Of a DNA stretch of 64,000 nucleotides, positions 5,790 to 56,298 are shown in pieces (positions within the stretch are counted from its first letter, which is position 1; each line of letters starts with the position of its first letter). Origin of the DNA: Devosia aurantiaca. GTDB taxonomy: Bacteria > Pseudomonadota > Alphaproteobacteria > Rhizobiales > Devosiaceae. Location of the stretch: contig NZ_JAALFG010000004.1 of NCBI RefSeq assembly GCF_011058215.1, positions 124,001 to 188,000 of the forward strand. Reading direction: 5' to 3'. The position numbers were made by a program, and so were the translations under genes. The notes under the pieces were generated by a model, which saw only the letters and a program-made list of their open reading frames with translations, was not told the origin of the DNA and ran no database searches.

Positions 5790-5800
5790 GAGGCATGAAG

Positions 5801-40278: not shown

Positions 40279-40294
40279 TTGCATACGAATGCAA
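40279..40294. promoter_or_regulatory. LacI-family operator, distal copy
   Basis: TTGCATACGAATGCAA, a near-perfect 16-base palindrome. It is the mirror of the neighbouring site at 40301 with centres 22 bases apart, which would place two repressor dimers on the same DNA face. Confidence 0.8.
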
Positions 40295-40300
40295 AAGCTC

Positions 40301-40316
40301 TTGCATTCGTATGCAA
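40301..40316. promoter_or_regulatory. LacI-family operator, proximal copy
   Basis: TTGCATTCGTATGCAA, the reverse complement of the site at 40279. It lies about 140 bases upstream of the binding-protein start. Confidence 0.8.
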
Positions 40317-40453
40317 GGCACCCTACCAATTGTGACGTGCCAAAGACACGACTGGTTTCGGTGAGGTAAGGCCGAGGCCGGTTGCGGGAGAATGACAACA
40401 GGGGATGGGCGGTGCGTGGCCCGAAGTGCACCGGTCACCGTCAGGAGAATTAA

Positions 40454-41692
40454 ATGAAGCTTTTGCTGAAGACGACTGTATCGCTCGGCGTTCTGTGCCT
40501 CACCGCCGGTGCTGCATTCGCTGACTGCGGGATCGAGGGTACCGGTTCTGTCCGCATCCTCTCCAACGACTTCGAGGCGCTGCGCCTCATCAACAGCACC
40601 GCCGAAGAATGCGCTGCCGACGGCATCACGGTCACGGCCAATGCCACTGCCGAGCACAAGAACCTCCAGGTTCCCGCGCTCTCGATCAACCCGGCCGAGT
40701 ATTCGGTTGCCGTGGTCGCCAACAATTCCATTGTCCCGCTGATGAACGCCGACCTAATCCGTCCGCTCGACGATCTGGTTGCCGAATATGGCGCTGACCT
40801 GCAGCCGAACCAGCTGATCAAGATCGATGGCAAGACCATGGCTATCGCATTCATGGGCAATGCCCAGCACCTGTTCTACCGCAAGGACATCCTCGACCAG
40901 GCCGGCATTGCCGAGCCCAAGTCCTACGAGGACATCCTTGCCGCTGCCGAAAAGATCAAGGCCGACGGCCTGATGGAATACCCGCTGGCCGCTTCGGACA
41001 AGCCCGGTTGGGATCTGGCTGCCGAATTCGTCAACACCTACCTCGGGACCGGCGGCGAGTTCTTCGCTCCGGGCTCGGCTGAACTTGCCATCGACAACGA
41101 AAATGGCATGAAGGTCCTCGAGACCATGCGCGCCCTGACCCAGTACATGGATCCGGACTACCTGACCTTCGATGCCAACGGCATCCAGGCCGAATACAAG
41201 GCCGGCAACGTCGCCATGATGGTCCAGTGGGGTTCGCTTGCCGGCGACATGCTCGATGGTGAAGGCGCTGCCGAAGGCGTCGTCGAAAACACCGTTCTGG
41301 CCGCTGCGCCTGTCATCGACGGCGGCACCACGCCGGCCGTGGCGCTCTGGTGGGATGGTTTCACCATTGCCAAGAACATCTCGGACGATGACGCTGCCGC
41401 CTCCTTCCAGGCCATGGTCCACGGCATCAGCCCCGAAATGGTTGCCGCCAACCCGACCGTTGCCACCTGGCTCGTCAAGGGCTACGAGCCCGGTCCGAAC
41501 GCCGTTGGCGTGATCGCCACCGCAAATGCTGGTGCGCGTGCCTACCCGATGCAGCCCTATATGGGTCTGCTCCACACCGCGCTTTCCGCTGAGTTGGCCG
41601 AATACATGGCCGGTTCGGAAGATGCGGCTCAGGCCCTGGCCGACGTCAAGGCTGCCTACGACACCGCTGCCAAAGAAGGCGGCTACCTCTAA
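40454..41692 (+). CDS. ABC importer substrate-binding protein, SBP family 1 (LacI regulon)
   Basis: 412-residue periplasmic binding protein. ATG at 40454 follows AGGAGA. The signal peptide ends AAFADC, and a cysteine follows directly (ADCGIEGTG), though no clear lipobox is seen. Family traits include AFMGNAQHLFYRKDILDQAGI and MVQWGSLAGDML (quoted in part). CUT1-type binders take sugars, polyols or their conjugates. The downstream amidase and dehydrogenases argue for a nitrogen-containing or methylated compound, which remains unknown. Confidence 0.9.
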   Translation: MKLLLKTTVSLGVLCLTAGAAFADCGIEGTGSVRILSNDFEALRLINSTAEECAADGITVTANATAEHKNLQVPALSINPAEYSVAVVANNSIVPLMNADLIRPLDDLVAEYGADLQPNQLIKIDGKTMAIAFMGNAQHLFYRKDILDQAGIAEPKSYEDILAAAEKIKADGLMEYPLAASDKPGWDLAAEFVNTYLGTGGEFFAPGSAELAIDNENGMKVLETMRALTQYMDPDYLTFDANGIQAEYKAGNVAMMVQWGSLAGDMLDGEGAAEGVVENTVLAAAPVIDGGTTPAVALWWDGFTIAKNISDDDAAASFQAMVHGISPEMVAANPTVATWLVKGYEPGPNAVGVIATANAGARAYPMQPYMGLLHTALSAELAEYMAGSEDAAQALADVKAAYDTAAKEGGYL

Positions 41693-41727
41693 GTCGGGCG
41701 CCTCTTTCCGAGGCTTGACTTGACTTC

Positions 41728-41763
41728 GAAGGGGCCTGCTCCTCCCTCGTGGTGGGCCCCTTC
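41728..41763 (+). promoter_or_regulatory. Intra-operon stem-loop after binding-protein gene
   Basis: Perfect nine-base arms GAAGGGGCC / GGCCCCTTC with an 18-base loop in the spacer between binding protein and permease. No U tract follows, so partial attenuation or mRNA protection is likely. Confidence 0.65.
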
Positions 41764-41846
41764 AACCCCGCGCCGCGGCCACGCCGTGGTGTTGGCGGCT
41801 GCTTGTCGCCGCGCTCCATTCATTTGCCGCGTATGGGAGGCATCAG

Positions 41847-42878
41847 ATGCCGCATAAGACATTTTTTGCCTTCATCCTGCCCTCGCTGATCGCGATGGTC
41901 CTCTTCATCGCCCTGCCGATCGTTTCAGTCGTGGTTCAGAGCTTCCACGTCGAACACGGTCGCATCCTGGTTCAGGTCGAGAGCTGCCAGCCCTTCGGCG
42001 GCTGCACCACCGAAACCCGTGTCGATACGGCTGCTATGGCCGAGCTTCGTGAAGAACAGCCCATGGGGCGCTTCAACGGCTTCGGCACTTATCTCAATCG
42101 CGGCCACCTCGCGGTCGACGAGATCGGCGCCATCCTTGCCAACAACAATGGCATCGGCGACATCGTCACCCGCATCTACAACCTGCCGCTCTATAAGGCG
42201 CTCGCCTTCACCCTCGTCTTCTGTTTCGTCGTCACGCCGATCGCCATGGCGCTCGGTTTCGTTATCGCGCTCGCGGTCAACACCGTGCCGAAGATGGTCA
42301 AGGGTCCAGTGATCTTCTTCTCGCTTCTGCCGATGATCATCACGCCGTTGATCGGCTCTCTGATCCTTTATTGGATGATCCAGCCAAACGGCATCATCGG
42401 CGCCAACCTGCGCGTGCTGTTCGACGATCCGACGCTGTCGCTGCGCCAGTCGCCGCTGCTGACCTGGCTGTCCCTGCTGTTCTACGGCGTCTGGACCAAC
42501 GCGCCGTTCAGCTTCGTCGTCTTCTATGCCGGCCTCCAGACCGTGCCCGCCGACACGCTCGAGTCGGCCATGATCGATGGCGCCAGCCGCTGGGAGCGCA
42601 TCCGCTACGTCGTCATCCCTCATCTTGCGCCACTTGCGACCTTCGTGGCGCTGGTGCAGCTCATGGACAACTTCCGCGTCTTCGAGCCTATCGTCGGCTT
42701 CTCGGCCGAAGCCAATGCCACCTCGCTCAGCTGGCTGATATTCAACGATCTTTCCGGCGACGCGCAGCTCTTCGGCTCGGCTGGTGCAACTTCGGTGATC
42801 ACCATTATCGGCGTCATCATTCTGCTTTCCCCGGTGCTGGTCCGCACCTGGCGCGAATTCAACCACAAGGTGGTCTGA
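41847..42878 (+). CDS. ABC importer permease, MalF-like (LacI regulon)
   Basis: 343 residues. After the first membrane segment an unusually long periplasmic insert of about 90 residues contains two cysteines (SCQPFGGC). The EAA-type coupling motif reads ESAMIDGASRWERIRYVVIP. ATG at 41847 follows GGGAGG. The stop lies one base before the next start. Confidence 0.9.
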   Translation: MPHKTFFAFILPSLIAMVLFIALPIVSVVVQSFHVEHGRILVQVESCQPFGGCTTETRVDTAAMAELREEQPMGRFNGFGTYLNRGHLAVDEIGAILANNNGIGDIVTRIYNLPLYKALAFTLVFCFVVTPIAMALGFVIALAVNTVPKMVKGPVIFFSLLPMIITPLIGSLILYWMIQPNGIIGANLRVLFDDPTLSLRQSPLLTWLSLLFYGVWTNAPFSFVVFYAGLQTVPADTLESAMIDGASRWERIRYVVIPHLAPLATFVALVQLMDNFRVFEPIVGFSAEANATSLSWLIFNDLSGDAQLFGSAGATSVITIIGVIILLSPVLVRTWREFNHKVV

Positions 42879-42879
42879 C

Positions 42880-43767
42880 ATGTCCGACACCGCCGTCTCT
42901 CAGCGTCGGCCGCTTGGCCTCAACATCATCATCATCGGCTTCCTCGTGGTCTGGGTCGTGCTCGCTGCCTTCCCCTTCCTCTGGACGGTGTGGGGTTCAT
43001 TCAAGGTCGAGCCGGACTTCTTTTCCCGGCAGAACTGGATCAATGCCATTACCGGCCCCTTCACTCAGCGCCAGACGGGCAGCGCCTTCACCGGTGACGG
43101 TTATTATGGCGCCTGGGTGACCCGCGAGTTCTGGCGCGCAGTCGCCAATACTGCGATCGTTACGGTTTCGGTAACAGTGATCTCGCTAACGCTTGGCACT
43201 CTTGGGGGCTACGCGCTTGCCCGCTCAGGCCAGCGCTACGCCTTTTGGATCCTGATCGCTGCACTGGTGTTCCGGGCCATGCCGCACATTACGCTCGTGT
43301 CGGGCTATCTGCTGCCCTTCTTCGAGCTCAACATCTGGGGCGTGCTGCCGACCTCAATCATCGTGCTCGTCGCGATCAACCAGCCCTTCACGCTCTGGAT
43401 GCTGCATTCCTTCTTCCTCTCGATCCCCAAGGATCTCGATGAATCGGCAATGGTCGACGGCTGTTCGCGCTTCGAAGCCTTTCGTCGAGTCATCATCCCG
43501 GTCATGTGGCCCGGCGTCGTGACCACGGGCCTCTTTAGCTTCCTTCTGGCTTATAACGACTTTGCCGTGACCTCGATGCTGCTCAGCAGCGACAACCAGA
43601 CCATGGTGCCCAAAATCTCGAGCTTCCTCGGATCGGTTCAGGAGCAGGGCAATGTCATGTTCGCCGTCGCCGCCGTGGTCTCGGCCACAGTGCCGCTCTT
43701 CATCCTCGTCCTCTTCTTCCAACGCCAGATCGTCAGCGGCCTGACCGCCGGCGCAGTGAAAGGCTAA
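42880..43767 (+). CDS. ABC importer permease, MalG-like (LacI regulon)
   Basis: 295-residue partner permease with coupling motif DESAMVDGCSRFEAFRRVIIP (quoted in part) and the C-terminus RQIVSGLTAGAVKG. A GDGYYGAWVTREFWRAVANT segment precedes the conserved core. Intact and tightly packed with its neighbours. Confidence 0.92.
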   Translation: MSDTAVSQRRPLGLNIIIIGFLVVWVVLAAFPFLWTVWGSFKVEPDFFSRQNWINAITGPFTQRQTGSAFTGDGYYGAWVTREFWRAVANTAIVTVSVTVISLTLGTLGGYALARSGQRYAFWILIAALVFRAMPHITLVSGYLLPFFELNIWGVLPTSIIVLVAINQPFTLWMLHSFFLSIPKDLDESAMVDGCSRFEAFRRVIIPVMWPGVVTTGLFSFLLAYNDFAVTSMLLSSDNQTMVPKISSFLGSVQEQGNVMFAVAAVVSATVPLFILVLFFQRQIVSGLTAGAVKG

Positions 43768-43772
43768 CTCCG

Positions 43773-44831
43773 ATGGCCCAGATCCGTCTCAAGAACGTCT
43801 CCAAGCGCTGGAACAATTTCATCGGCGTGGACAATTTCAATCTCGATATCGCCGACCAGGAATTCCTTGTTTTGCTGGGGCCCTCGGGCTGCGGCAAGAC
43901 CACGACGATGCGCATGATTGCCGGCCTCGAGGACATTACCGAAGGCGAAATCTGGATCGGCGACCGTTTGGTCAACAAGCTCGAGCCCAAGGACCGGGAC
44001 ATTTCCATGGTGTTCCAGAGCTATGGCCTCTATCCGAACATGACCGTCTACGAGAACATTCGCTTCCCGCTCAAGGTCCGCAAGGTTCCGGCTGGGCAGC
44101 ATCATGAGCGCGTCATGGCAGCGAGCAAAATGGTCGAGCTCGATGACTTCCTGCAGCGCCGCCCGGCAGCCCTGTCCGGTGGCCAGCGCCAGCGCGTCGC
44201 GCTTGCCCGCGCTATCGTTCGCGAGCCCAATGCTTTCCTGATGGACGAGCCGCTGTCGAACCTCGACGCAAAGCTGCGGGTCTCCACTCGCGCGCAGATC
44301 AAGAACCTTCATCATACGCTCAAGCGCACGACGATCTACGTGACGCATGACCAGATCGAAGCCATGACCCTGGCCGACCGCGTTGTGGTCATGAGCAAGG
44401 GCCTGATCCAGCAGGTGGGCACGCCGATGGAGATCTATGATCGCCCGGCGAACACTTTCGTCGCGAGCTTCATCGGGTCGCCGGCCATGAACCTCGTGCA
44501 TGGCGAAATTCACAATGGCGTCTTCACGGGCGACCATATCCGCGTCGATGGCCTGTCAACGCAGGTCAACGGCCCGGTGACCCTCGGCTTCCGCGCCGAA
44601 GATGCCGTGCTTGCCGACAGCAATGCGCATATCGAGGCGCCGATCTATAGCGTCGAGCTTTTGGGTGAAGCGACCATGATTTCGATGCGCGTTGCCGGTG
44701 AACTGGTGTCGATCAAGGTCGGCAAGGACTACCGCGCCGAAATCGGCGACGTGGTGCGCGTCAACATCGCCCCAAGCGCCTGCCACCTCTTTGACCGGTC
44801 CACCGGTCAGCGTATCGCTACGGCTGGATAA
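43773..44831 (+). CDS. ABC importer ATPase, UgpC/MalK-like (LacI regulon)
   Basis: 352 residues: Walker A GPSGCGKTTTMRM, signature LSGGQRQRVALARAI, Walker B AFLMDEPLSNLD and a TOBE domain beginning near residue 240 with VTLGFRAEDAVL. Completes the importer with the two permeases upstream. The next gene begins directly after the stop. Confidence 0.93.
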   Translation: MAQIRLKNVSKRWNNFIGVDNFNLDIADQEFLVLLGPSGCGKTTTMRMIAGLEDITEGEIWIGDRLVNKLEPKDRDISMVFQSYGLYPNMTVYENIRFPLKVRKVPAGQHHERVMAASKMVELDDFLQRRPAALSGGQRQRVALARAIVREPNAFLMDEPLSNLDAKLRVSTRAQIKNLHHTLKRTTIYVTHDQIEAMTLADRVVVMSKGLIQQVGTPMEIYDRPANTFVASFIGSPAMNLVHGEIHNGVFTGDHIRVDGLSTQVNGPVTLGFRAEDAVLADSNAHIEAPIYSVELLGEATMISMRVAGELVSIKVGKDYRAEIGDVVRVNIAPSACHLFDRSTGQRIATAG

Positions 44832-44852
44832 ATGCCTGCCGGAGAAGCCAGG

Positions 44853-46385
44853 ATGGCTGAGACCATCGACGAAAAGCGCGCTGTCTTCGACGAGGCGGTA
44901 CAGCGCCACGGATTGCGCTTTTCGGCTGACGAGGCCGAAAGCTTGCGCAAGCTGGCCGACTGGATGAGCGATGGCCTGGTGCGCGTAGAGACCAACGCCA
45001 AGCCTGCGATCGATTCCACGGCAGACAAGGCGCTCGATCTTTCGCTCTTCGAGCAAGGCAGTATGCTGCGCGATGGCCGGCTGACCTCGGTCGCACTGGT
45101 GGATGCCTATCTGCGCCGCATCGAGGCGCGCGATGGCGCGTATCGTGCGTTCTACGTGGTCGATCGCGAAGGCGCGCTTGCTGCTGCAGAAGAGGCTGAT
45201 GCGGCCTTTGCAGAAGGCGTCGACATCAGCCACCTTCATGGCATTCCAGTCGGCATCAAGGACCTGATCGACGTTTCGGGCCTTGCGACGACGGCAAATG
45301 CCCCGGGACGCAAGGGCGCTGTTGCCGAAAAAGATGCCGAGGTCGTCAGGCGTTTGCGGGATGCTGGCGCCATCGTCATCGGCAAGCTTGCGACCTATGA
45401 GTGGGGCACCGTCGGCCCGGACAATCGCGGCGCCTTTCCGCCGGCGCGCAATCCCTGGAGTATCGAGCATATCACCGGCGGTTCGTCGTCGGGCAGTGCG
45501 GTGGCGGTCGCCGGCGGATTGCTGCGCACCACGCTGGGCACCGATACCGGCGGCTCCCTCCGCGGGCCTGCCTTCTATTGCGGCGTTGTGGGGTTGAAGC
45601 CGACATTCGACCTCGTGCCGCGCAGCGGTGTGCTGCCGATGTCGGACAGCATGGATCATGTTGGCCCCATGAGCGCGAGTGTTGCCGAGGCCGCCGCCAC
45701 GCTCGACATTATCGCCGATTTCCCGCCGGGGGTATCGGCATCGGAAAAGCTTGGCCGGCCGATCTCGGGGATGCGCATCGGCTATGCCCGCAATTGGTTC
45801 GCTCGGGACAGCCAGACCTCGCCAGCGGTTCTGAGCGCCATGGACACGGCCATTTCGACGCTGTCGCAGCTCGGCGCGATCATCGAGGAAGTCGAGCTTC
45901 CCGACTATTACAGCATCGAAGTGGCCGCCGCCGCGATCCTTCACAAGGAAAGCTTCGACTATCATGCGCAGAGCCTTCGCGATCGTCCCGACGACTTCGG
46001 TCGTCGTGCTTTCCTGAGCCTGGCTGCCGGCCTTACCGTCACTGAGGATGAACTCGCCAAAGCGCGCGGGGCAGGGGAACTGTTTCGGGCCGAGGTCGAC
46101 AAGCTCCTGCTTAGCCACGATGCCCTGATCACGGCGGGTGCGCTGACCACGGCGCTGCTTGCGGCGCCCTTCGAAAAAGAAGCCGTGTGGACGCCGATGC
46201 GGACCATTGGCTTCAATGTCAGCGGTCATCCCGTTCTGGCAATGCCGATCGGGTTCGACAACGGCTTGCCGATGGGCATGCAGATCGTTGGCAAGCACTG
46301 GGACGAGGCAACCATTGTCCAGATCGGCGACGCTTTTGAGCGCGCTACCGATCATGCCCTGCAGCGGCCACCAGCGCTCACCTAA
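44853..46385 (+). CDS. Amidase-signature-family hydrolase
   Basis: 510 residues from ATG 44853, which has GGAGAAG upstream; an in-frame ATG at 44832 adds seven residues. The Ser-cisSer-Lys triad is visible: Lys in [11 protein letters not shown], the [15 protein letters not shown] serine, and [12 protein letters not shown]. It hydrolyses a carboxamide to acid and ammonia or amine. Co-transcribed with the importer, it probably acts early on the imported compound or on an amide intermediate. Confidence 0.9.
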
Positions 46386-46423
46386 GAAAATCACGACGAC
46401 CAGCAGGTCGCCGTTTACAAACC

Positions 46424-46439
46424 TTGCATACGTATGCAA
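46424..46439. promoter_or_regulatory. LacI-family operator upstream of hisD-like gene 1
   Basis: TTGCATACGTATGCAA, a perfect 16-base palindrome, 33 bases before the start codon at 46472. Matches the sites at 40279, 40301, 49660 and 54250. Confidence 0.85.
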
Positions 46440-46471
46440 ACTGTCTGCAACAGAATTCGGGAGGGCGTAAA

Positions 46472-47799
46472 ATGCCGATCTGGCTCAAGCGCGGTAAGGA
46501 TGTCGATGAACGGGCAGAGGCCGACCGCCAGGTTCGCGCCACCGTGGAAGGCATTCTCGCCGATATCGAAAAGCGCGGCAACGCGGCGATCCAGGAACTG
46601 TCGGCCAAGTTCGACAAGTGGGAGCGGAAAGACTTTCGCCTGAGCCAGGCCGAGATCGATGAGTGTATGGCCCAGCTCACCGATCAGGACCTGAGCGATA
46701 TCGAATTTGCCCAGACGCAGGTGCGCAACTTCGCCCAGGCGCAGCGCAACACCATGCAGGACCTCGAGGTCGAGACGCTGCCTGGCGTTACCCTCGGCCA
46801 CAAGCATGTGCCGATCAACGCCGTGGGCTGCTATGTTCCTGGCGGCAAATATCCGCTGCTTGCATCCGCCCACATGTCGGTGATCACCGCCAAGGTCGCC
46901 GGTTGCGAACGCGTCATCACCTGCGCTCCCCCTTCGGCGGCAAGCCCGCTCCAGCCGTGGTCGCCGCGCAGGCCATGGCGGGCGCTGACGAAATCTATGT
47001 TCTCGGCGGCATCCAGGCCATCGGCGCCATGGCGATCGGCACCGAAACCATCGCGCCGGTCGATATGCTTGTCGGTCCCGGCAATGCCTTCGTTGCCGAA
47101 GCCAAGCGGCAGCTTTTCGGTCGCGTCGGCATCGACTTGTTTGCCGGCCCGACCGAGACCCTGGTCATTGCCGACGAAACCGTCGACGGCGAAATGTGCG
47201 CCACCGATCTTCTCGGTCAGGCCGAGCACGGCCCGACATCTCCCGCGATCCTCCTGACGAACTCGGAAAAGCTCGCCCGCGAGACCATGGCCGAGATCGA
47301 GCGCATTCTCGAAATCCTGCCGACCGGCGAAATCGCCCGCAAATCCTGGAATGATTTCGGTGAAGTCATCGTCTGCGACAGCTACGAGGAAATGCTGGCC
47401 GAAGCCGACCGCATCGCGTCCGAACATGTGCAGGTGATGACCGATCGCGACATGTGGTTCCGCGATAACATCACCAATTATGGCGCGCTGTTCCTCGGGC
47501 CGCGCACCAATGTCGCCTATGGCGACAAGGTCATCGGCACCAATCACACGCTGCCCACCATGAAGGCTGCGCGCTATACCGGCGGCCTCTGGGTCGGCAA
47601 GTTCATGAAGACCTGCACCTGGCAGACCGTCACCACCGACGAGGCCTCGGCCATGATCGGCGAATACGGCTCGCGACTTTCGATACTGGAAGGCTTTGTC
47701 GGCCACGCCGAACAAGCCAATGTCCGCGTCCGCCGCTATGGCGGCCGCAACGTGCCCTATGGCACGGGCGCTGCACCGCGCACGCAGGCCGCCGAGTAA
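46472..47799 (+). CDS. Histidinol-dehydrogenase-like NAD enzyme 1 (frameshifted)
   Basis: About 442 residues after repair. ATG at 46472 follows GGGAGGG. HisD-family marks: [31 protein letters not shown], zinc-ligand region [26 protein letters not shown] and [14 protein letters not shown] is missing in the run 46928-46932; repair gives [16 protein letters not shown]. Location in a catabolic regulon, not a his operon, suggests oxidation of an alcohol to a carboxylate, as known for HpsN-type sulfopropanediol dehydrogenases of this family. The actual substrate is unknown. Confidence 0.88.
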
Positions 47800-47802
47800 G
47801 CC

Positions 47803-48567
47803 ATGACACTGCCCCGCACACCCAGCTTCCGCCTCGACGGCAAGCGTGCCCTCGTCACCGGGGGCACGCGGGGCATAGGCCTGGGTGCAGCGGTGGCATT
47901 GGCCGAGGCTGGCGCGGCGGTGACGATCGCCGCTCGCACCGCTTCGAATGTCGAAGCAGTCGTCAACGAGATGGCTGCTGCCGGTTTTGCGGTCGAGGGC
48001 GTGGCGCTCGACATCACTGACAGCGACGCTGTCAGGACTTTTGTCGACGACGTTGAGCCGTTCCAGATCCTCGTCAACTCGGCAGGCACCGCGCGGCATT
48101 CCAGTTTCACCCAGATTACACCGGCCAACTACCAGGCGGTGATGGACGTTAATCTGGGTGCGACGATCTTTGTTTCGCAGGCGGTCGTTGCGCGGTTGCT
48201 GGCTGCGGGACTGCCCGGGTCGATTATCCACATCTCGTCGCAGATGGGGCATGTCGGCGGGCCGGCGCGGGCGGTTTACTCCGCCAGCAAACATGCTGTG
48301 GAGGGCCTCACAAAGGCCATGGCAATCGAGCTCGGGCCGAACAATATTCGGGTGAACACGGTATGCCCGACTTTTGTGGAAACCGAGTTGACGGCCAAGA
48401 ACCTGAGCGACCCGGACTTCAGAAGCTGGGTGCTCTCAAAAATCAAGCTTGGCCGGCTGGGAAGAGTGGAAGACCTGATGGGCCCGATTGTGTTTCTGGC
48501 GAGTGACGCCGCAGCACTGATCACCGGCACATCGCTTCTGGTGGATGGCGGATGGACAGCGGAGTAA
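47803..48567 (+). CDS. Short-chain dehydrogenase/reductase
   Basis: 254-residue classical SDR with cofactor motif TGGTRGIGLGAA, the NSAG structural motif, catalytic Ser in IHISSQMG and YSASK (Tyr/Lys), and the LLVDGGWTAE end. Starts three bases after the hisD-like gene and overlaps the LacI gene. Probably oxidises or reduces a hydroxyl/keto group in the same pathway. Confidence 0.92.
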   Translation: MTLPRTPSFRLDGKRALVTGGTRGIGLGAAVALAEAGAAVTIAARTASNVEAVVNEMAAAGFAVEGVALDITDSDAVRTFVDDVEPFQILVNSAGTARHSSFTQITPANYQAVMDVNLGATIFVSQAVVARLLAAGLPGSIIHISSQMGHVGGPARAVYSASKHAVEGLTKAMAIELGPNNIRVNTVCPTFVETELTAKNLSDPDFRSWVLSKIKLGRLGRVEDLMGPIVFLASDAAALITGTSLLVDGGWTAE

Positions 48568-49620
48568 AAAGGCGGGCGTGACCTCCTCGCAAGTCGCCGA
48601 ACATGCCGGCGTCTCGCAGTCGGCTGTCTCGCGCACCTTTACGCCGGGCGCGTCCATCTCCTCCAAGACCCGCCAGAAGGTTTTGGCCTCGGCCAAGGTG
48701 CTCGGCTACCGGCCCAATGCTATCGCCCGGTCGCTCATCACCAACCGCTCGCGCATAATCGCTGTGGTGATGGCCTATCTCGAAAACCTCTTTTATCCCG
48801 ACGTTCTTGAAGAACTCGGCCGGGCACTGGCCGCGGAAAACTACCATTTGCTGCTGTTTACCGGCTTCATGGACCGCGACAGCGACCCGGTCTTCGATCA
48901 GCTGATGCAGTATCGCGTCGACGGTATCATTCTTGCGTCAACCTCGCTCTCCTCCGAGCTTTCGGAAGAATGCGCCAGCGCCGGCATTCCGGTCGTGCTC
49001 TTCAACCGAACCACGGAGCGTGATGCCGTTTCCAGCGTCACCACGCGGAACAGGGAAGGGGGCAAGCGCATCGCCGAGTTCCTCGTTGCCGGTGGGCACA
49101 AGAGCTTTGGCTATATCGCTGGCCTCGAAAATTCCTCGACCAATCGAGACCGCCATCAAGGCTATGTGGAAGGTCTTGCCGGCCACGGTATTACCGAGAT
49201 CGCCTATGAAATCGGCAATTACTCGCGCCCGAAGCGGAAGCTGCGGCGCGCATGATGTTCTCGCGTGCCGACCGACCGGAGGCGCTTTTCGTCGCCAACG
49301 ACCACATGGCCGTCGCCGTCATGGACGTTGCGCGCTACGAGTTCGGGCTCAAGATCCCCGAAGACATTTCCATCGTCGGCTATGACGATGTTGGTCCGGC
49401 CATCTGGCGCAGCTATGGCATCACGTCGATGAGCCAGCCGGTCAAGCGCATGGTGGAGTCCACCGTCGATATCTTGATGGACCAGATTACCTCGGGCGAG
49501 ATCGAAGCCGAGCATCGCATCCACAATGGTGAGCTGGTGGTCCGCACCTCTGCGCGCCTGCCCAAAAGCGGCATCGTCGAGACCGACGGCCGCAAAATCT
49601 TCCGCCCCAAGGACGCTTGA
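48545..49620 (+). CDS. LacI-family transcriptional regulator (frameshifted)
   Basis: About 358 residues after repair. The DNA-binding domain includes SSQVAEHAGVSQSAVSRTF and the hinge PNAIARSLITNRS, followed by a periplasmic-binding-protein-like ligand domain (VDGIILASTSL, VVLFNRTTERD, ALFVANDHMAVAVMD, ISIVGYDDVGPAIW). One G is missing at 49231; repair joins YSRPEAEAAARM to MFSRADRPEAL. Start either ATG 48545, overlapping the SDR gene, or GTG 48578 behind AAAAGG. It is the only LacI protein in the window and the natural reader of the five TTGCATACGWATGCAA sites. Confidence 0.9.
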
Positions 49621-49659
49621 TCATGTCGCGACATGCTCATGCCGTCTTTGCAACTATGC

Positions 49660-49675
49660 TTGCATACGAATGCAA
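49660..49675. promoter_or_regulatory. LacI-family operator upstream of bicupin gene
   Basis: TTGCATACGAATGCAA, identical to the site at 40279, in the 103-base spacer between the LacI gene and the bicupin gene, 49 bases before the start. Confidence 0.85.
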
Positions 49676-49723
49676 ATCTATCCATCTTATCCCCGCTTCT
49701 GCGTCTCATGAAAGGATTGAACC

Positions 49724-50760
49724 ATGAGCAAGTGGACACAAGCCGAAATGGAAAAGCGCCTGGTGCGCTATGCCGACCTCAAGGGCCTGCGCAATGCGTT
49801 TATCGACGCGCGCACCCCGGTTCGGACCGCAAGGAAAACTTCACGATCATCGGGCCGGGCGTTTCCGAAAACCCGGCGCAGGTGGTGCATATTCCCGAAG
49901 CGCACGGTTTTAATTTCGGTGCCGCCCGCCAGCCCTTCGGCTGCACCAATTCGCAGCACTCGCATCTCACCGCCGAGACCTTCCTGGTCCATACCGGCAA
50001 GTGGCGCTTCGTCTTCGGCGCCAACAAGGACGAGGGCTACCTCGATGTCGAGCCCGGTGACGTGGCGACCGTCCCGACCCATATGTTCCGTGGCTTCGAA
50101 AAGCGCGACGAAGGCACCGGCTTCCTCGCCGTGGTGCTTGGCCATGACGATCCGGGCAAGGTCGTCTGGGCGCCATCCGTCTTCAAGATGGCCGAGGATT
50201 TCGGCCTCAAGCTCCTCAAGGGCGGCAAGCTGATCGACACCACGCTGGGCGAAAAGGTGCCGGAAGGCGCCGAACTCGAGCAGCCGCCGACGGCCGAAAA
50301 GATGGCCGAACTCGCCACCCCGCCGCAGGAAGAGCTCGCCAAATACGCGCTCAAGCCCGAGCAGATGAAGGCCAACCCCCATTCGCCGCTGGCTGGCGAA
50401 GGCGTCGAGGAAGCAGCGCTGATCGGCGATGTCGATGCTGCTGACGGCTTCAAGGCCGGTCCGATCGTCGGCCACTGGCAGCATGGCTTTACGCTTCGCC
50501 GTCTCAAGCTTGAGACCGGCGCCGTGGTGCCAGCGCATAGCCGCAGCGAACAGGAAGTGCTGTTTGTCCAGTCCGGCACGCTGGAAGTGACCTGGGAAGA
50601 TGGTTCGCTTATTCTGGGCGCCGGCGACACGCTGACCATCCCGGTTGGTCTCGCGCACGGTTTCCGTAACCCGGCTTCGGCCGAAGCGATCACCTTCATC
50701 ATCCGCGGTGCGGCCTCTCCCGCTGCCCCGCAGTTCCAGACCGCACAAGCTGCAGAGTAA
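49724..50760 (+). CDS. Bicupin protein, gentisate-dioxygenase-like fold (frameshifted)
   Basis: About 345 residues after repair, starting MSKWTQAEMEKRLVRYADLKG at 49724 after GAAAGGA (quoted in part). A C is missing in the run 49815-49818, repair giving DARTPGSDRKENFTIIGPG. Two cupin barrels are visible: the first with HSHLTAETFLVHTGKWRF, the second with PAHSRSEQEVLFVQSGTLEV and VGLAHGFRN. Candidate metal ligands (HSH, E; HSRSEQE, H) are present. It could be an iron or manganese dioxygenase, isomerase or sugar-binding cupin. The substrate is unknown. Confidence 0.82.
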
Positions 50761-50763
50761 GCT

Positions 50764-51891
50764 ATGGCCCACAAGATCCTCACCACCCATGTCGGCTCGT
50801 TGCCGCGTTCCAAGCAGGTGACGGACCTTGTGTTCGCGCGCGAAGCCGGCGTCCCCATCGATGAGGCCGGCTTCAACACCATTATCGGGGCGGCGGTCGA
50901 CGACATCGTCGCCAAGCAGAAGGCGGCAGGCATCGACCTGCCGTCCGATGGCGAAATGAGCAAGATTTCCTACGCCACCTATATCAAGGACCGGCTTACC
51001 GGCTTTGATGGCGACAGCTCGCGCCAGCCGCCGGCCGACCTCGAAATGTTCCCCAATTTCCTCAAGCGCCAGGCCAGTACCGGTGGCACGCCGACCTATC
51101 GCCGGCCCAAATGCGTCGGCGAAATTACGGTCAAAAGCCTCGAGCCGCTGCGTGAGGATGTCGAGGCCTTCGGCGGTGCACTTAAGCGCAACGGCTATGC
51201 CAAGGGCTTCATGAACTCGGCGACGCCCGGCGTTATCGCGCTGTTCCAGCCCAACGAATTCTATTCGACGCAGGACGAATATCTTGAAGCCGTCGCCGAA
51301 GGCATGCGGGTTGAATACGAGGGCATCGTCGAAGCCGGCTTCATTCTGCAGCTCGATGCACCCGATCTCGGCCTCGGCCGGCACATGATGTACAAGGATC
51401 TCGATGACGACGGTTTCCTCCAGGCGGCAGGCCGCCACATCGAGGTGATGAATCACGCGCTGCGCAATATCGACGGCAAAGACGTGCGCATGCATGTGTG
51501 CTGGGGCAATTACGAAGGCCCCCACGTCTGCGACATCGCGCTCAAGAAGATCCTGCCGGGCCTGCTCAAAGCCAAGCCGCGGGCGTTGCTGTTCGAAGGC
51601 GCCAATCCGCGGCACGCGCATGAGTGGATCGACTGGAAGAATGTCGATTTGCCCGATGATTATGTGCTGATCCCGGGCGTCATCGACTCGACCTCCAACT
51701 TTGTCGAGCATCCCGAACTGATCGCCCAGCGCCTCAAGAATTTCGTCGACATCGTCGGCGCCGAACGCGTAATTGCCGGCACCGATTGCGGTTTCTCCAC
51801 CTTTGCCGGCTTCGGCGCCGTGGACCCGGACATCGTCTGGGCCAAGTTCAAGGCGCTGAGCGAAGGCGCTGAGATAGCGTCCAGGCACTGA
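50764..51891 (+). CDS. MetE C-terminal-domain-like zinc methyltransferase
   Basis: 375 residues, only the catalytic half of cobalamin-independent methionine synthase. TTHVGSLPR opens the protein and GIDLPSDGEMSK follows. The zinc ligands are all recognisable: His and Cys in MHVCWGNY, Glu in LFEGAN and Cys in GTDCGFSTF. Without the MetE N-terminal domain it cannot be assumed to make methionine. In this catabolic operon it may transfer a methyl or alkyl group from the substrate to a thiol, as in the related epoxyalkane:CoM transferases. Four bases behind the bicupin gene. Confidence 0.85.
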   Translation: MAHKILTTHVGSLPRSKQVTDLVFAREAGVPIDEAGFNTIIGAAVDDIVAKQKAAGIDLPSDGEMSKISYATYIKDRLTGFDGDSSRQPPADLEMFPNFLKRQASTGGTPTYRRPKCVGEITVKSLEPLREDVEAFGGALKRNGYAKGFMNSATPGVIALFQPNEFYSTQDEYLEAVAEGMRVEYEGIVEAGFILQLDAPDLGLGRHMMYKDLDDDGFLQAAGRHIEVMNHALRNIDGKDVRMHVCWGNYEGPHVCDIALKKILPGLLKAKPRALLFEGANPRHAHEWIDWKNVDLPDDYVLIPGVIDSTSNFVEHPELIAQRLKNFVDIVGAERVIAGTDCGFSTFAGFGAVDPDIVWAKFKALSEGAEIASRH

Positions 51892-51908
51892 ACCATCGGC
51901 TCCTGTGT

Positions 51909-52010
51909 ACCCTCGCCCCTATGGGGAGAGGGAAGGGTGAGGGGCCTTCATAACAATCAAGAACCCCTCACCCGGCGCTTCGCGCCGACCTCTCCCCGGA
52001 GGGGCGAGGT
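51909..52010. repeat. Intergenic inverted-repeat element
   Basis: A 102-base palindromic unit between the MetE-like and RraA-like genes. CCTCGCCCC...GGGGAGAGG and GTGAGGGG on the left face CCCCTCAC, CCTCTCCCC and GGGGCGAGG on the right. It resembles dispersed intergenic repeats of Hyphomicrobiales. It may form a transcript hairpin that separates expression of the two genes. Confidence 0.7.
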
Positions 52011-52029
52011 AGAAATCCGAGGAGCAACC

Positions 52030-52731
52030 ATGCCAACCATTTCTCCCGACGTCCTTGCCGCTCTCCGAGCTGCCGACACCCCGACCGTCTGCAACGCGCT
52101 CGAACATGTCATGGGCGGCCGCACGGCCGAGGGGTTCACCAAGACGCCGGTCGTCTGCGCCGATCCCAGCCTGCCGCCGGTTGTCGGTTTTGCCCGCACC
52201 GCCAAGATCCGCGCATCGTCGCCGGCACAAAAGCCCGCGGCGGAAGTGCGGGCTCTGCGCATGAAATATTACGAGTATGTCGCGGAGGGCGAAGGGCCAA
52301 ACGTCGTCGTCATCGAGGACACCGATTTTCCCCACGCTATCGGCGGTTTCTGGGGCGAAATGCAGGTGGCGCAGCACAAGGGTCTGGGCATTGCCGGCAC
52401 GCTGACCAATGGCGTGCTGCGGGATCTCGGCATGCTCGACGAGGGCTATCAGGTGATCGCCGGCTCCGTCGGCCCGAGCCACGCCTTCGTGCATGTGACC
52501 GAACTCGACGTGCCGGTCACGGTCTTCGGCATGAATGTCCGGCCTGGCGATCTGGTCCATGCGGATCGGCATGGTGGCGTCGTCATTCCTGCCGAGCATA
52601 TCGAACGCATGGCCTGGGCCATCGACGTCGTCATGCGCAAGGAAGTGCCCATTCTGACGGCGGCCCGGGCGCCGGGCTTCAATGTTGAGAAGCTGAGGCA
52701 GGCTTGGCTGGATGCGGACAAGATCAGCTGA
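52030..52731 (+). CDS. RraA/HMG-aldolase-like protein
   Basis: 233 residues of the RraA-like fold shared by 4-hydroxy-4-methyl-2-oxoglutarate/4-carboxy-4-hydroxy-2-oxoadipate aldolases, oxaloacetate decarboxylases and the RNase E regulator RraA. The metal-site region GTLTNGVLRDLGML and the VHADRHGGVVIP block are present. In a catabolic regulon an aldolase or decarboxylase producing pyruvate or oxaloacetate is more likely than RNase control. Its ribosome site, GAGGAGC, follows the palindromic repeat. Confidence 0.85.
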   Translation: MPTISPDVLAALRAADTPTVCNALEHVMGGRTAEGFTKTPVVCADPSLPPVVGFARTAKIRASSPAQKPAAEVRALRMKYYEYVAEGEGPNVVVIEDTDFPHAIGGFWGEMQVAQHKGLGIAGTLTNGVLRDLGMLDEGYQVIAGSVGPSHAFVHVTELDVPVTVFGMNVRPGDLVHADRHGGVVIPAEHIERMAWAIDVVMRKEVPILTAARAPGFNVEKLRQAWLDADKIS

Positions 52732-52740
52732 CTAAGTAGA

Positions 52741-52822
52741 CCTCATCCTGAGCTTGTCGAAGGACGAGGTCGTGGCAAGGTTTGTGAAACCGAGCTCGTG
52801 GTTCGACAGGCTCACTATGAGG
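52741..52822. repeat. Intergenic inverted-repeat element (CCTCATCCTGAGC type)
   Basis: CCTCAT and GAGCTTGTCGAA on the left pair with TTCGACAGGCTC and ATGAGG on the right, forming a long imperfect hairpin. The CTTGTCGAAGGACGAG core is a dispersed intergenic repeat seen in several alphaproteobacteria. No gene is inside. Confidence 0.75.
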
Positions 52823-52833
52823 TCTCAATCAAC

Positions 52834-52862
52834 AAAAAGGCCCGCTTTCGCGGGCCTTTTCT
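52834..52862. terminator. Bidirectional terminator between convergent genes
   Basis: AAAAGGCCCGC-TTTC-GCGGGCCTTTT: a strong GC stem with A/T tails on both sides, serving the RraA-like gene on the plus strand and the hisD-like gene 2 on the minus strand. Confidence 0.9.
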
Positions 52863-54161
52863 TTAGTTCGCCTTGGACTGCATGCGGTCCAATCGCAGCT
52901 GGGCTGCCCGGCGGTGGCCCTCGAGCCCTTCGCTGGCCGACTGGCGGGCAGCGGGCGGAGCGACCTGCTCGACACCGCGCTCGTCAAGCCACTGATGCGT
53001 TGCGATCTTGACGTATGCGCCGACCCAGAGGCCGCCGGTATAGGCGCCGGCGCCCATGGTCGGGAGCGTGTGGTTGGTGCCCGAGCATTTGTCGGAATAA
53101 ACGACGCTGGCGAGTTCGCCAATGAATAGCGAGCCGTAGTTGCGCAGCTTCAGCGCAAAGGCTTTGCTGTCGGTGGTGTGGACCTGGAGGTGCTCGGCGG
53201 CGATCAGGTCGGAATAGCCGATCATCGCATCCTCGCTCTCGCAGACGGTGATCTCGCCGTAGTTGATCCAGGCTTCGCGGGCGGTGTTGGCGGTCGAGAG
53301 CGTTTCAAGCTGCTTTTCGACTTCCTTGAGCGTCGCTTCTGCCAGGGCGCGGTCGGTGGTGATGAGACCGACGCGGGTGCGGATATCGTGTTCGGCCTGG
53401 GCGAGGAGGTCGGTCGCGATCATCTCGGCATCGCCCGAAGAGTCGGCAACGACGAAGATTTCGGAAGGACCGGCGAGTTGGTCGATGCCGACCGGACCGA
53501 ACACCTGGCGCTTGGCTTCGTTGACGAAGGCATTGCCGGGGCCGACGATCTTGTTGACGGCCGGAACGCTTTCGGTGCCATAGGCCATGGCGGCGATGGC
53601 CTGAGCCCCGCCGATGCGGAAGATGCGGTCGGCGCCGGAAAGGGCGCAGCCGGCGATCATTGCCTTGTGGGCATTGGGCGGCAGGCAGGCGATGACTTCA
53701 TCGACGCCGGCAACCTTGGCGGGGACGATCGTCATGATCGGCGCAGATAGGAGCGGATAGCGGCCACCGGGAACATAGCAGCCGACGCGCTGGATCGGGA
53801 TCACGCGGTGACCCATATGGACGCCGGGCAGGGTCTCGACCTCGAGCGGCAGGATAGTGGCCAGCTGTGCCTCGGCAAACTTGCGCACGTTAGCGATGGC
53901 GAACTCGGTGTCCTTGCGGGTCTGCGGATCAAGCTCGTCCAGCGCCGCCTGACGTTCTTCGGCGGTGACTTCGAAAACCTCGATATCCGACTTGTCGAAC
54001 TTGGCCGAGTATTCCCGAACGGCCGCATCGCCATTGGCGCGCACGTTCTTGATGATCTCGCTGACCAGCGTTTCCACCGGAGCGTTGTCGCCGACGGAAG
54101 AACGCTCCGGCGCCTTCACATATTCGACGCCTGGGAACGGTGAAACGGCACTCTGTGTCAT
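52863..54161 (-). CDS. Histidinol-dehydrogenase-like NAD enzyme 2
   Basis: 432 residues, intact, from ATG 54161 with GGAGCAG upstream. HisD-family marks include [59 protein letters not shown] and [11 protein letters not shown], so the zinc ligands and catalytic Glu/His pair are kept. It differs widely from paralogue 1 (for example [11 protein letters not shown] versus [11 protein letters not shown]), so the two are not a recent duplication. A LacI operator lies 89 bases upstream. Which, if either, contributes to histidine synthesis cannot be told, but context favours a catabolic alcohol dehydrogenase. Confidence 0.88.
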
Positions 54162-54249
54162 CAAAATCTGCTCCGAAAATAGCGTTTGGAAGCGCCTCGG
54201 CTAACTGAGGGTCAGCCTTTCGCCCATCCAAACCGGTGTCGAATTGATC

Positions 54250-54265
54250 TTGCATACGTATTCAA
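54250..54265. promoter_or_regulatory. LacI-family operator in divergent spacer
   Basis: TTGCATACGTATTCAA, one change from the perfect palindrome at 46424. It lies between the minus-strand hisD-like gene 2 and the plus-strand hydrolase gene, so it may control both. Confidence 0.75.
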
Positions 54266-54375
54266 TATTTGCCAGAGTTTTTTCCAGTTGAGGACGGTTC
54301 GATGGTGGTCGGGCCGGCCGGAGGAACCATGCTTTATCCCGATCCCGGTCTGTTGATCGGCACCGAGTTCGCCGC

Positions 54376-56298
54376 GTGAACCAGTCCGCTCCCATCAAGG
54401 CTCATGGTGCGGCCGACGAGCAGCTGCCGCTGCTCTTGCTGCCCGGCACCGCCTGTGACGGCCGGCTGTTTGAGCCGATGCTGGAGCATCTCAATGTGCC
54501 GGTGACGATCGTTGGCGACCTCAACGGCGCATCCACCGCCAAGGAGATGGCCGCCAAGCTGCTCGAGCGGGCGCCCGAGCGGTTTTCGCTGCTAGGCTTT
54601 TCGCTGGGCGGCATCGTGGCGCTCGAGATGGCGGCGCAGGCAACGCAGCGCGTTGCGCGGCTGGCACTGGTCGACACGACGGCCCGGCCAGTTCCCGCAA
54701 ACGACATCGACCGGCGGCGCGTGGAAGTTGTCAATGCGGCCGAAACCGGCATGGCCGATTATGTGCGCGGCGGGTGGGACCGTTCGGTTGCGCCCGACAA
54801 TGTCGGCAACACCCAATTGCTGCAAACCGTCATCGCCATGGCCGAAGACCTCGGCGCCGAGCGTCTCGGGCCGCAGGTCGAGATCGGCATCAGCCGCGCC
54901 GACAGCCGGAAGCGGCTGCGCAAGATCGCCGTGCCGACGCTGGTTCTGGCGGGCGAGCACGAGCAGGTCTGCACGCTCGAGGCGCATCGCGAGATTGCCG
55001 ACGCCATCACCGGCGCACAATTTTACACCATTCCGCAAGCAGGACATTTCGCCCCGCTTGAAAATCCGGCCGCGGTGGCGCGTCATGTGCGCGACTGGCT
55101 GGATTGGACCACGATCAACGACATGCCGGCCAAGGCGGCCCAAGGAGCAGTGATGAGCGACGTTACCAGCAACCCCAAGATCAAGGGCAGTTCGGAGGTG
55201 GCGCTGGAAGAAAGCGTGCTGCAGGTCGAGCGCCGCGATTATCGCGATATCGCCCCGGACGATCGCCCGCGTTCCCAGTCGCTGGATGGGTTCGACGACA
55301 TCTATACCGACATCGTCGACTACATCATCCGCTGCACCCACAAAATCTGGGACGAGCGCGACATTGGGCTGATCTACACCCACTACACGCATAACTGCGT
55401 GCTTTATGGCACCACCGGCACGATCTACAATCGCGAAGACGTCGTCCGCGACACCATCCAGCGCCTGGTCTCCTTCCCGGAACGCCGTGGCATGGGCACG
55501 CAGGTGATCTGGAACGGCAACGACAAGGACGGCTTCTATACCAGCCACCTCGTTACCGGTTCGGGCCGCCACACCCAGTATGGCCACCTCGGCCAGCCGA
55601 CCTTCAAGCCCTTCGTCTCGCGCACGATCGCGGACTGCATGATCCACCGCAACATGATCTACCGCGAATGGGTCGTGGCCGATCAGATGGCGATCATCAA
55701 GCAGTTGGGTCTCGACCCCAACCACTTCGCGGCGCGCACGGCCAAGTCCAAGTTCGACGCTGGCCTCACCTCGCTCGACATCGGTGAAAACCGCCGCTTC
55801 CTAGGCCAGACCCGCCCCAATGAAAAGGCCGACACGTCGCTGGCGCACAATGACATCGAAGCCCAGACCATCGAAATGCTGCACGAGGTCTTCACCAAGC
55901 GCATGTTCGGCCGCATCGCCCAGGATTACGCGCCCAATGCGCAGTATCATGGTCCGCTGATGAAGGAGCTCTACGGCCAGGCCGCCATCATTCACCAGCA
56001 TCTGGGCCTGATCGGCTCGCTGCCGGACGCGTCCTATGAAGTCCAGCATGTCGCCTCCAACCCCTGCGAAGAAGGCGGCACCAAGGTCGCCGTGCGCTGG
56101 CTGATGGAGGGCCACCACCTCGGCTACGGCATCCTCAACGAATTGGGCGACCCCACCGGCAAGCGCGTCCAGGTCATGGGCATGAGCCACTACCACTGGA
56201 AGGACGGCAAGATCGTCGACGAATGGAACGTCTACGACGAGCTTTCCATGCTGGTCCAGGTCAAGCTCGGCCAGCTGGCAGAAGCTGGCCAGGCTTAA
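54376..56298 (+). CDS. Alpha/beta-hydrolase joined in frame to a double SnoaL/NTF2-like protein
   Basis: One continuous 640-codon frame. Residues about 10-250 are an alpha/beta-hydrolase: LLLLPGTACDGRLFEPM, nucleophile elbow GFSLGG, acid region VLAGEHEQVCTLE and the QAGHFAPLEN histidine. Residues 260-640 hold two SnoaL-like cone domains (DIGLIYTHYTHNCVLYGTTG; RIAQDYAPNAQYHGP; HYHWKDGKIVDEWNVYDE). A ribosome site CAAGGAG and ATG at 55153 sit at the join, and an alternative frame ends there as TGATG. The fusion may therefore be produced by a one-base error. The GTG start at 54376 has only a weak ribosome site. The roles are probably hydrolysis and cyclisation/isomerisation in the LacI regulon. 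Confidence 0.8.
   Translation: MNQSAPIKAHGAADEQLPLLLLPGTACDGRLFEPMLEHLNVPVTIVGDLNGASTAKEMAAKLLERAPERFSLLGFSLGGIVALEMAAQATQRVARLALVDTTARPVPANDIDRRRVEVVNAAETGMADYVRGGWDRSVAPDNVGNTQLLQTVIAMAEDLGAERLGPQVEIGISRADSRKRLRKIAVPTLVLAGEHEQVCTLEAHREIADAITGAQFYTIPQAGHFAPLENPAAVARHVRDWLDWTTINDMPAKAAQGAVMSDVTSNPKIKGSSEVALEESVLQVERRDYRDIAPDDRPRSQSLDGFDDIYTDIVDYIIRCTHKIWDERDIGLIYTHYTHNCVLYGTTGTIYNREDVVRDTIQRLVSFPERRGMGTQVIWNGNDKDGFYTSHLVTGSGRHTQYGHLGQPTFKPFVSRTIADCMIHRNMIYREWVVADQMAIIKQLGLDPNHFAARTAKSKFDAGLTSLDIGENRRFLGQTRPNEKADTSLAHNDIEAQTIEMLHEVFTKRMFGRIAQDYAPNAQYHGPLMKELYGQAAIIHQHLGLIGSLPDASYEVQHVASNPCEEGGTKVAVRWLMEGHHLGYGILNELGDPTGKRVQVMGMSHYHWKDGKIVDEWNVYDELSMLVQVKLGQLAEAGQA
55143..55155 (+). promoter_or_regulatory. 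Internal ribosome site and start of the SnoaL-like part
   Basis: AGGAGCAGTGATG: GGAG lies about six bases before the ATG at 55153, which starts MSDVTSNPKIKG. This suggests that the 381-residue SnoaL-like protein is normally translated separately, overlapping the hydrolase stop as TGATG. Confidence 0.6.

Follow-up and report, generated by a model that had tools for sequence, protein, structure and literature searches.

Two described relatives bear most closely on the gene cluster reported here. (R)-Dihydroxypropanesulfonate (DHPS) 3-dehydrogenase (HpsN) carries the motif G-R-Y-A/S-H, the His of which binds the sulfonate, and histidinol dehydrogenase (HisD) proper has G-S-A-P-L at the same place; in Cupriavidus pinatubonensis, hpsN lies in the hps cluster beside two oxidoreductases and a major facilitator superfamily (MFS) uptake system (all as given in PMC11382572). 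We analyzed 64,000 nucleotides of Devosia aurantiaca (contig NZ_JAALFG010000004.1, positions 124,001 to 188,000; hereafter the window), in which positions 40,279 to 56,298 hold two HisD-like genes (hisD1 and hisD2) together with genes for an importer, several further enzymes, and a LacI-family regulator (Table 1). The host genome (G000) comprises 3.69 Mb in 6 contigs, and the best named matches of one cluster protein were mostly Devosia records (87–93% identity). One LacI-controlled catabolic regulon, as proposed in a preliminary description of the locus, is strongly supported by the data. That this regulon is LacI-repressed and encodes the pathway proposed below for a polyhydroxylated small molecule is the reading we favor, with moderate confidence.

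Operator sites of the probable LacI-controlled regulon

The motif TTGCATACGWATGCAA was found at five positions of the window (operators 1–5), at four of them exactly on at least one strand. At three or fewer mismatches, there were 10 strand-matches, all at these 5 positions, against 0.55 expected from 100 shuffles (standard deviation, 0.97; largest value, 5). At one mismatch or fewer, the whole 3.69-Mb genome holds these five sites only, and two further sites occur elsewhere with two mismatches (C2:436082 and C4:209928). The five sites occupy four intergenic regions and precede five transcription units, with 32–159 bp between site and start codon: 159 and 137 bp before the binding-protein gene, 32 bp before hisD1, 48 bp before the cupin gene, 88 bp before hisD2, and 110 bp before the hydrolase–SnoaL gene. 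The preliminary description had placed five motif matches ahead of these operons; all five lie as described, and the site at 54250 departs from an exact match by one nucleotide. A pair such as operators 1 and 2 is also present in many of the relatives. The regulator has both a LacI helix-turn-helix and a periplasmic-binding-protein-like domain. It would bind the 16-bp palindrome TTGCATnCGnATGCAA before the importer–amidase, hisD1–short-chain dehydrogenase/reductase (SDR)–lacI, bicupin–(MetE-like)–RraA-like, and divergent hisD2 / hydrolase–SnoaL genes, and would leave these operators once the substrate or an early intermediate builds up.

The sites track the cluster within the genus. Scanning of 61 genomes (this one and 60 relatives) at one mismatch or fewer detected sites in 22, all of this genus, and the cluster SnoaL protein was found in 30 of 75 genus genomes (E ≤ 1e-100). 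Among the 37 genus genomes in both searches, this marker occurred in 21 of 22 with sites and in 0 of 15 without (Fisher's exact test, 1.7e-9, which is no true probability because the genomes are related); the sole genome with sites and without the marker (G017) is 62% complete. Gene order and sites were largely kept in 16 Devosia cluster stretches among 20 stretches retrieved; the clusters of L022, L024, and L025 are cut at the stretch end, the hydrolase gene of L028 lies about 2.6 kb farther away, and L027 is rearranged with no hydrolase match. The SnoaL protein is rare: a sample of 299 genomes from the phylum contained it in 7 (E ≤ 1e-40), with values near 1e-220 in only three, our own included. 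Among 20,395 E. coli records, none matched the SnoaL gene of Leclercia at the DNA level.

We counted genes in 85 stretches (80 of 112 confirmed places and five plasmid records), which often end before the cluster does, so that presence counts are limited accordingly. L035, L039, and L043 were joined to the Devosia group by 90–93% identity. A site at two mismatches or fewer was present in 24/24 Devosia-group stretches and, near a core-gene start, in 54 of the 61 others; this latter count used upstream windows built on crude open reading frame (ORF) starts. In a control with 150 palindromes from shuffled half-sites, the mean was 0.08 stretches and the maximum 6. Upstream windows classed as "other" held sites at two mismatches or fewer in 30/61 stretches (divergent neighbors) and are not a clean control. 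The seven stretches that missed the cut near core genes were L069, L070, L074, L087, L089, L103, and L118; all except L103 had a site at two mismatches or fewer somewhere in the stretch, as detected with the looser W pattern or, for L118, in a separate scan. Core genes stay neighbors in orthologous stretches alongside the sites, the opposite of the scattering under unrelated regulation that the preliminary description had named as grounds for abandoning its proposal.

The operator motif also changes along with the LacI recognition helix across species. We sampled 23 stretches and obtained 21 helices from 20 of them, L033, L106, and L118 falling outside the pattern. The helix SQSAVSR was present in 17 of 21 LacI proteins, all from stretches with a site at three or fewer mismatches; SQSTVSR (Geobacillus and Priestia) pairs with the palindromes TTGAATACGTATTCAA (L120) and AGGAATACGTATTCCT (L121); and the two most different helices, from Sulfitobacter (L128) and Rhizobium (L136), came from stretches with no site at three or fewer mismatches. 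Deinococcus has a one-mismatch site within its cluster; the pattern missed its LacI helix. This tracking of the helix across phyla, the co-occurrence of motif and cluster in the genus, and the frequent location of the site within the LacI–hisD gap itself make it highly unlikely that the palindromes serve another regulator and came to lie in the cluster by chance. Such an explanation could draw on two stray sites off-cluster in genome G030 and on one congener (L033), in which a paralogous LacI with the same helix is encoded at a different locus, next to a site with one mismatch. Since that paralog shares the helix and a near-identical site, the motif alone cannot name its regulator.

By inspection, the L033 locus (site 5156; LacI 5237–6322) adjoins genes resembling coenzyme A-transferase and aldehyde/alcohol dehydrogenases and is possibly a sister regulon. 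One exact off-cluster palindrome in genome G030 (L030, 4867) lies, again by inspection, near aldehyde-dehydrogenase-like and zinc alcohol-dehydrogenase-like genes, and it is possible that it marks an extra regulon member or the site of a paralogous LacI.

A putative third class of HisD-like dehydrogenases

HisD-like matches from the window and stretches L034–L136, some of them near-duplicates, all had [KR][YF]P[LMI] at the signature place (139/139: KYPL, 43; RYPL, 41; KFPM, 25; RYPI, 21; RYPM, 5; RFPL, 3; KYPM, 1). The search pattern admits both known signatures, and neither GRY[A/S]H (HpsN) nor GSAPL (histidinol dehydrogenase) occurred among these 139 matches. The window hisD1, which is split and was thus missed by the pattern, has GKYPL by inspection. 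Q250, H253, E318, H319, D352, K353, and H412 (numbering of the first row) were invariant in six of six aligned HisD-like proteins and, aligned with CpHpsN, correspond to the zinc ligands and the catalytic Glu-His. We infer that both HisD-like enzymes are members of a third class, with the signature G-[KR]-[YF]-P-[LMI], of four-electron NAD dehydrogenases acting on a primary alcohol that is neither a sulfonate nor histidinol.

The solved structures nearest both HisD-like proteins are (R)-DHPS dehydrogenases (for hisD1, via the intact L025 orthologue), which had raised DHPS as a candidate substrate and a sulfonate pathway of the HpsN type. The class signature lacks the sulfonate-binding His, and a DHPS-like sulfonate is therefore disfavored: the His of GRY[A/S]H, as given in PMC11382572, is replaced by Leu, Met, or Ile in every one of the matches. 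Nor was a sulfonate lyase noticed among the cluster genes, although no search was aimed at one. We dropped this candidate and consider a sulfonate pathway extremely improbable.

Functional assignment of the other enzymes

The gene calls of the preliminary description (importer, amidase, two four-electron-type dehydrogenases, SDR, cupin, aldolase, and SnoaL) proved right by Pfam. An RraA-like protein was present in 29 of 85 stretches, an HpcH/HpaI aldolase in 26, both in none, and neither in 30; independent occurrence would give about 8.9 stretches with both (Fisher's exact test, 2.3e-6, part of which is due to lineage). Because the HpcH/HpaI aldolase takes its place elsewhere and the two never occur together, we consider the RraA-like protein to be, in all probability, a genuine aldolase. 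E-x20-R-D was found in 15/15 members of the RraA-like ORF family, at the expected place in the nine that were printed; we take a carboxylate-x20-Arg-Asp motif to mark RraA-like class II aldolases.

The MetE-like zinc protein is accessory: its gene occurred in 10/24 Devosia-group stretches (and in 7 of the 16 Devosia cluster stretches mentioned above) and in 1/61 others (1/36 of the "other" group and 0/23 enterobacterial stretches). The methylated substrate that had been suggested thus has little support, and we rejected it. The residues His-x-Cys, Glu, and Cys, presumably zinc ligands as in MetE, were invariant in 5/5 aligned proteins, and the pattern was present in 6/6.

For the cupin, earlier regarded as a candidate oxygenase, fold prediction (on the orthologue from Devosia sp. 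YR412) confirmed two barrels and left oxygenation as one of several candidate chemistries, since oxalate decarboxylase, quercetinase, and salicylate dioxygenase matched equally well. A full cupin metal site has, besides HxH and Glu, a fourth His, located in motif 2. H79, H81, and E85 were invariant in 25/25 proteins, and the place of the motif-2 His is taken by an invariant Arg (R123), so that the full 3-His/1-Glu site is missing.

The amidase signature (Lys/cis-Ser/Ser) was recognized by inspection in the window protein and by pattern in 32 of 38 ORF-family members. An amidated substrate, also suggested earlier, gains from the amidase being usual and loses from its presence in only 9/23 enterobacterial stretches. 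The NCBIfam models nearest the SDR include polyol and sugar-acid dehydrogenases, every one displayed scoring below its cut-off, and the sequence of the binding protein gave only weak matches, to solved sugar/polyol binding proteins, for its ligand class.

Hydrolase and SnoaL parts shared one open frame of at least 640 amino acids in 28 of 30 genus genomes with the protein, and they are encoded by separate genes in Sinorhizobium medicae. The Pfam name (SnoaL-like polyketide cyclase) and weak matches to IdmH-type cyclases would suit a biosynthetic or detoxification cluster in which SnoaL acts as a polyketide cyclase. This alternative is very unlikely given the ABC importer (ATP-binding cassette) with its binding protein in the window, the importer ATPase in 32 of 36 "other" stretches, and the two NAD four-electron dehydrogenases and aldolase; no polyketide synthase occurred among the annotated neighbors in the annotated records viewed, beyond which no search for one was made.

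Distribution and composition of the gene cluster

The gene set, together with its sites, is also found in Rhizobiaceae, Rhodobacteraceae, Halomonas, Enterobacterales, Novosphingobium, and Deinococcus. In the Devosia group (24 stretches), we counted LacI in 21, HisD1 in 19, HisD2 in 22, SDR in 20, cupin in 21, hydrolase in 22, RraA in 19, HpcH in 0, amidase in 15, MetE-like in 10, and ABC in 11. The corresponding numbers in Enterobacterales (23 stretches) were LacI 23, HisD1 19, HisD2 22, SDR 21, cupin 21, hydrolase 21, RraA 0, HpcH 21, amidase 9, MetE-like 0, MFS 23, and ABC 0, and in the "other" stretches (36) LacI 30, HisD1 24, HisD2 27, SDR 14, cupin 14, hydrolase 13, RraA 10, HpcH 3, amidase 25, MetE-like 1, and ABC (ATPase) 32. 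Novosphingobium and Deinococcus (one stretch each) both had cupin, hydrolase, LacI, and HpcH; the two hisD genes of Deinococcus were both scored as HisD2, and its stretch encodes a nitrilase-family hydrolase, nearest to formamidase/aliphatic amidase models, with no amidase match. The transporter is swapped between lineages (ABC or MFS), and Roseibium has a tripartite ATP-independent periplasmic (TRAP) system besides ABC. Counted with Enterobacterales is L101, labeled Chryseobacterium: the cluster and neighbors on this Chryseobacterium sp. 18061 contig nearly match those of Citrobacter sp. 18056 (L108), and the record is probably mislabeled or contaminated.

Not every stretch holds the whole set. 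A Klebsiella michiganensis plasmid stretch (L134) encodes only LacI, hisD1, SDR, MFS, hydrolase, HpcH, and cupin; lacking SnoaL, hisD2, and amidase, it indicates that two pathways may share the regulator. In a two-pathway arrangement, LacI, hisD1, SDR, hydrolase, aldolase, bicupin, and transporter would form the core, into which an add-on module (SnoaL proteins, hisD2, and amidase) would feed a second compound. Five Hyphomicrobiales plasmids (L129–L133; Rhizobium, Sinorhizobium, Phyllobacterium, and Nitratireductor) are in keeping with this: they carry hisD2 orthologues (69–77% identity) adjoined by a small cupin-domain gene, divergent in 4/5, and the rest of the cluster is not in the stretch. 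So are LacI–hisD1 units without other cluster genes in Salmonella and Geobacillus plasmid stretches. Yet both modules stand together under the same operator in most Devosia, rhizobial, and enterobacterial stretches, and in Devosia the hydrolase of the core is fused to the SnoaL of the add-on. We regard two partly separate pathways as possible, though doubtful.

Pairs of hisD1 and SDR genes were also observed in L122, L123, and L126 among fumarylacetoacetate hydrolases and vicinal oxygen chelate (VOC) or dioxygenase-like proteins, with no operator at three or fewer mismatches in these stretches; such pairs may serve as a reusable module for oxidation.

Taken across lineages, the cluster has, in our estimate, an even chance of representing a widespread, undescribed catabolic pathway built on the third HisD-like class, in which LacI and operator are kept with hisD, the transporter, aldolase, and amide hydrolase are exchanged for proteins unrelated to them, and the substrate is a two-ended polyhydroxylated plant or algal compound. 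The LacI/operator–hisD association would then span Pseudomonadota, Deinococcota, and Bacillota (a bare LacI–hisD unit with a variant site), and the substrate would perhaps be a common compound with two HO-CH2-CH(X)- ends, amino-polyol or iminosugar-like.

Proposed pathway

As read from the sequences, the most likely pathway of the single regulon combines CH2OH oxidation, lactone opening, rearrangement, aldol cleavage, and optional amide hydrolysis. The CUT1 ABC importer would bring in the polyhydroxylated small molecule. Because their catalytic residues are intact, the two zinc/NAD HisD-like dehydrogenases are each predicted to convert an HO-CH2-CH(X)- end to the carboxylate without release of the aldehyde, and the SDR would oxidize a secondary alcohol. 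The PcaD-like hydrolase may open a lactone and pass the product to the fused SnoaL isomerase/dehydratase, with the bicupin as a candidate for a metal-dependent isomerization, decarboxylation, or oxygenation. Cleavage of the 2-oxo-4-hydroxy acid so formed, with pyruvate or a comparable keto acid as product, would fall to the RraA-like class II aldolase, and the amidase would free amide nitrogen in lineages with an amide-bearing substrate.

Several observations weigh against this interpretation. The amidase is absent from 14/23 enterobacterial stretches, the stretches with neither aldolase make up 30 of the 85 (many end before the cluster does), and the K. michiganensis plasmid stretch holds the reduced set given above. 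RraA and HpcH largely track lineages, which weakens the independence of their mutual exclusion; the folds closest to that of the bicupin are diverse in their chemistry; the reaction given for SnoaL is guessed from its fold family; and the congener L033 has a second LacI with this helix and a similar site.

Gene structures and assembly

Coordinates of the cluster features are given in Table 1. The gene structures of the preliminary description needed correction, in that this assembly breaks hisD1, lacI, and the cupin gene across two frames each (near 46930–46948, 49231–49249, and 49815–49820, respectively) and that hydrolase and SnoaL form one fused frame. Two of the three breaks coincide with C runs, and the orthologues are uninterrupted in the two relatives examined; sequencing error is therefore likelier than gene decay. 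Downstream of the cluster, an MHYT-PAS / GGDEF-EAL protein gene (56513–58971) is, by inspection, apparently split over two frames too, and given these breaks, the assembly probably contains indel errors. Between the MetE-like and RraA-like genes lies a short intergenic repeat (51964–52012) with 21 more partial copies genome-wide. Just upstream of the regulon, 38383–40188 encodes a PF07995 glucose/sorbosone dehydrogenase-like domain fused to a PF01161 phosphatidylethanolamine-binding protein domain.

Table 1. Operators and genes of the probable LacI-controlled cluster in the window
Feature	Position	Strand	Remarks
Operator 1	40279..40294	.	Exact motif
Operator 2	40301..40316	.	Exact on - strand; paired with operator 1, 22 bp center to center
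CUT1-type extracellular solute-binding protein	40454..41692	+	PF01547; solved sugar/polyol binding proteins matched weakly
ABC permease A	41847..42878	+	PF00528
ABC permease B	42880..43767	+	PF00528
ABC ATPase, MalK/UgpC type	43773..44831	+	PF00005, OB_MalK, TOBE_2
Amidase-signature amidase	44832..46385	+	PF01425; Lys/cis-Ser/Ser signature by inspection
Operator 3	46424..46439	.	Exact; perfect palindrome
hisD1, HisD-like putative four-electron alcohol dehydrogenase, GKYPL class	46472..47799	+	PF00815 on both pieces
SDR	47803..48567	+	adh_short_C2
LacI-family regulator	48545..49620	+	PF00356, PF00532, PF13377 over two pieces; recognition helix SQSAVSR
Operator 4	49660..49675	.	Exact motif
Bicupin	49724..50760	+	PF07883; bicupin fold predicted for Devosia sp. 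YR412 orthologue
MetE-like zinc protein (accessory; catalytic domain only)	50764..51891	+	PF01717; H-x-C, E, C conserved
RraA-like probable aldolase (E-x20-R-D)	52027..52731	+	PF03737
hisD2, HisD-like putative four-electron alcohol dehydrogenase, GRYPL class	52863..54161	-	PF00815
Operator 5	54250..54265	.	One mismatch; between divergent hisD2 and hydrolase–SnoaL genes
PcaD-like alpha/beta hydrolase fused to double SnoaL (NTF2-like) protein	54376..56298	+	Pfam, NCBIfam; one frame

Significance and comparison with known systems

HisD-like genes on the annotated records met in this study are labeled "histidinol dehydrogenase." The conserved operator, the LacI, and the near-fixed enzyme set mark one coherent HisD-like family with a testable role, for which the signature G-[KR]-[YF]-P-[LMI] provides a rule for re-annotation. 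The regulon also offers an assay, based on binding-protein ligands and LacI release, by which a substrate of plant- and sea-associated bacteria could be found. The full-text literature searched (most subscription journals and all bioRxiv preprints lay outside its scope) contained no description of the gene set or operator, and a term search of the main text of a LacI regulon paper gave no match (PMC4052901).

Compared with histidinol dehydrogenase, the proteins share the PF00815 family and score above the TIGR00069 cut-off; unlike HisD, they are two paralogues in a catabolic cluster without GSAPL, and HisD2 falls far below the PRK13770 cut-off (268 against 647 bits). With HpsN they share the HisD fold family, the zinc and catalytic residues, and an expected NAD four-electron oxidation, whereas the third-class signature, the presence of two HisD-like enzymes, and LacI control set this cluster apart, as do the hydrolase, SnoaL, bicupin, and aldolase in place of a sulfolactate lyase. 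The RraA-like protein resembles 4-hydroxy-4-methyl-2-oxoglutarate/4-carboxy-4-hydroxy-2-oxoadipate (HMG/CHA) aldolase (LigK/GalC) in family, in its E-x20-R-D motif, and in an R-D pair that aligns with 3NOJ, but its score of 28.5 bits falls far short of the 304.5 bits required by the ligK model. The MetE-like protein has the catalytic domain and H-x-C, E, C pattern of MetE, unlike which it is accessory, and it reaches the cut-off of none of the six NCBIfam models that it matched; a further zinc alkyltransferase that we take to be of a similar type is epoxyalkane:coenzyme M transferase. We know of no pathway that the downstream enzyme combination fits. The locus has one LacI-family gene, palindromic operators, a CUT1 ABC importer, and a local regulon in common with LacI sugar-catabolism regulons and differs from them in downstream enzymes that match no pathway found in the literature. 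The enzyme set and dehydrogenase class thus appear to be undescribed, and the regulation appears to work as in other LacI catabolic regulons.

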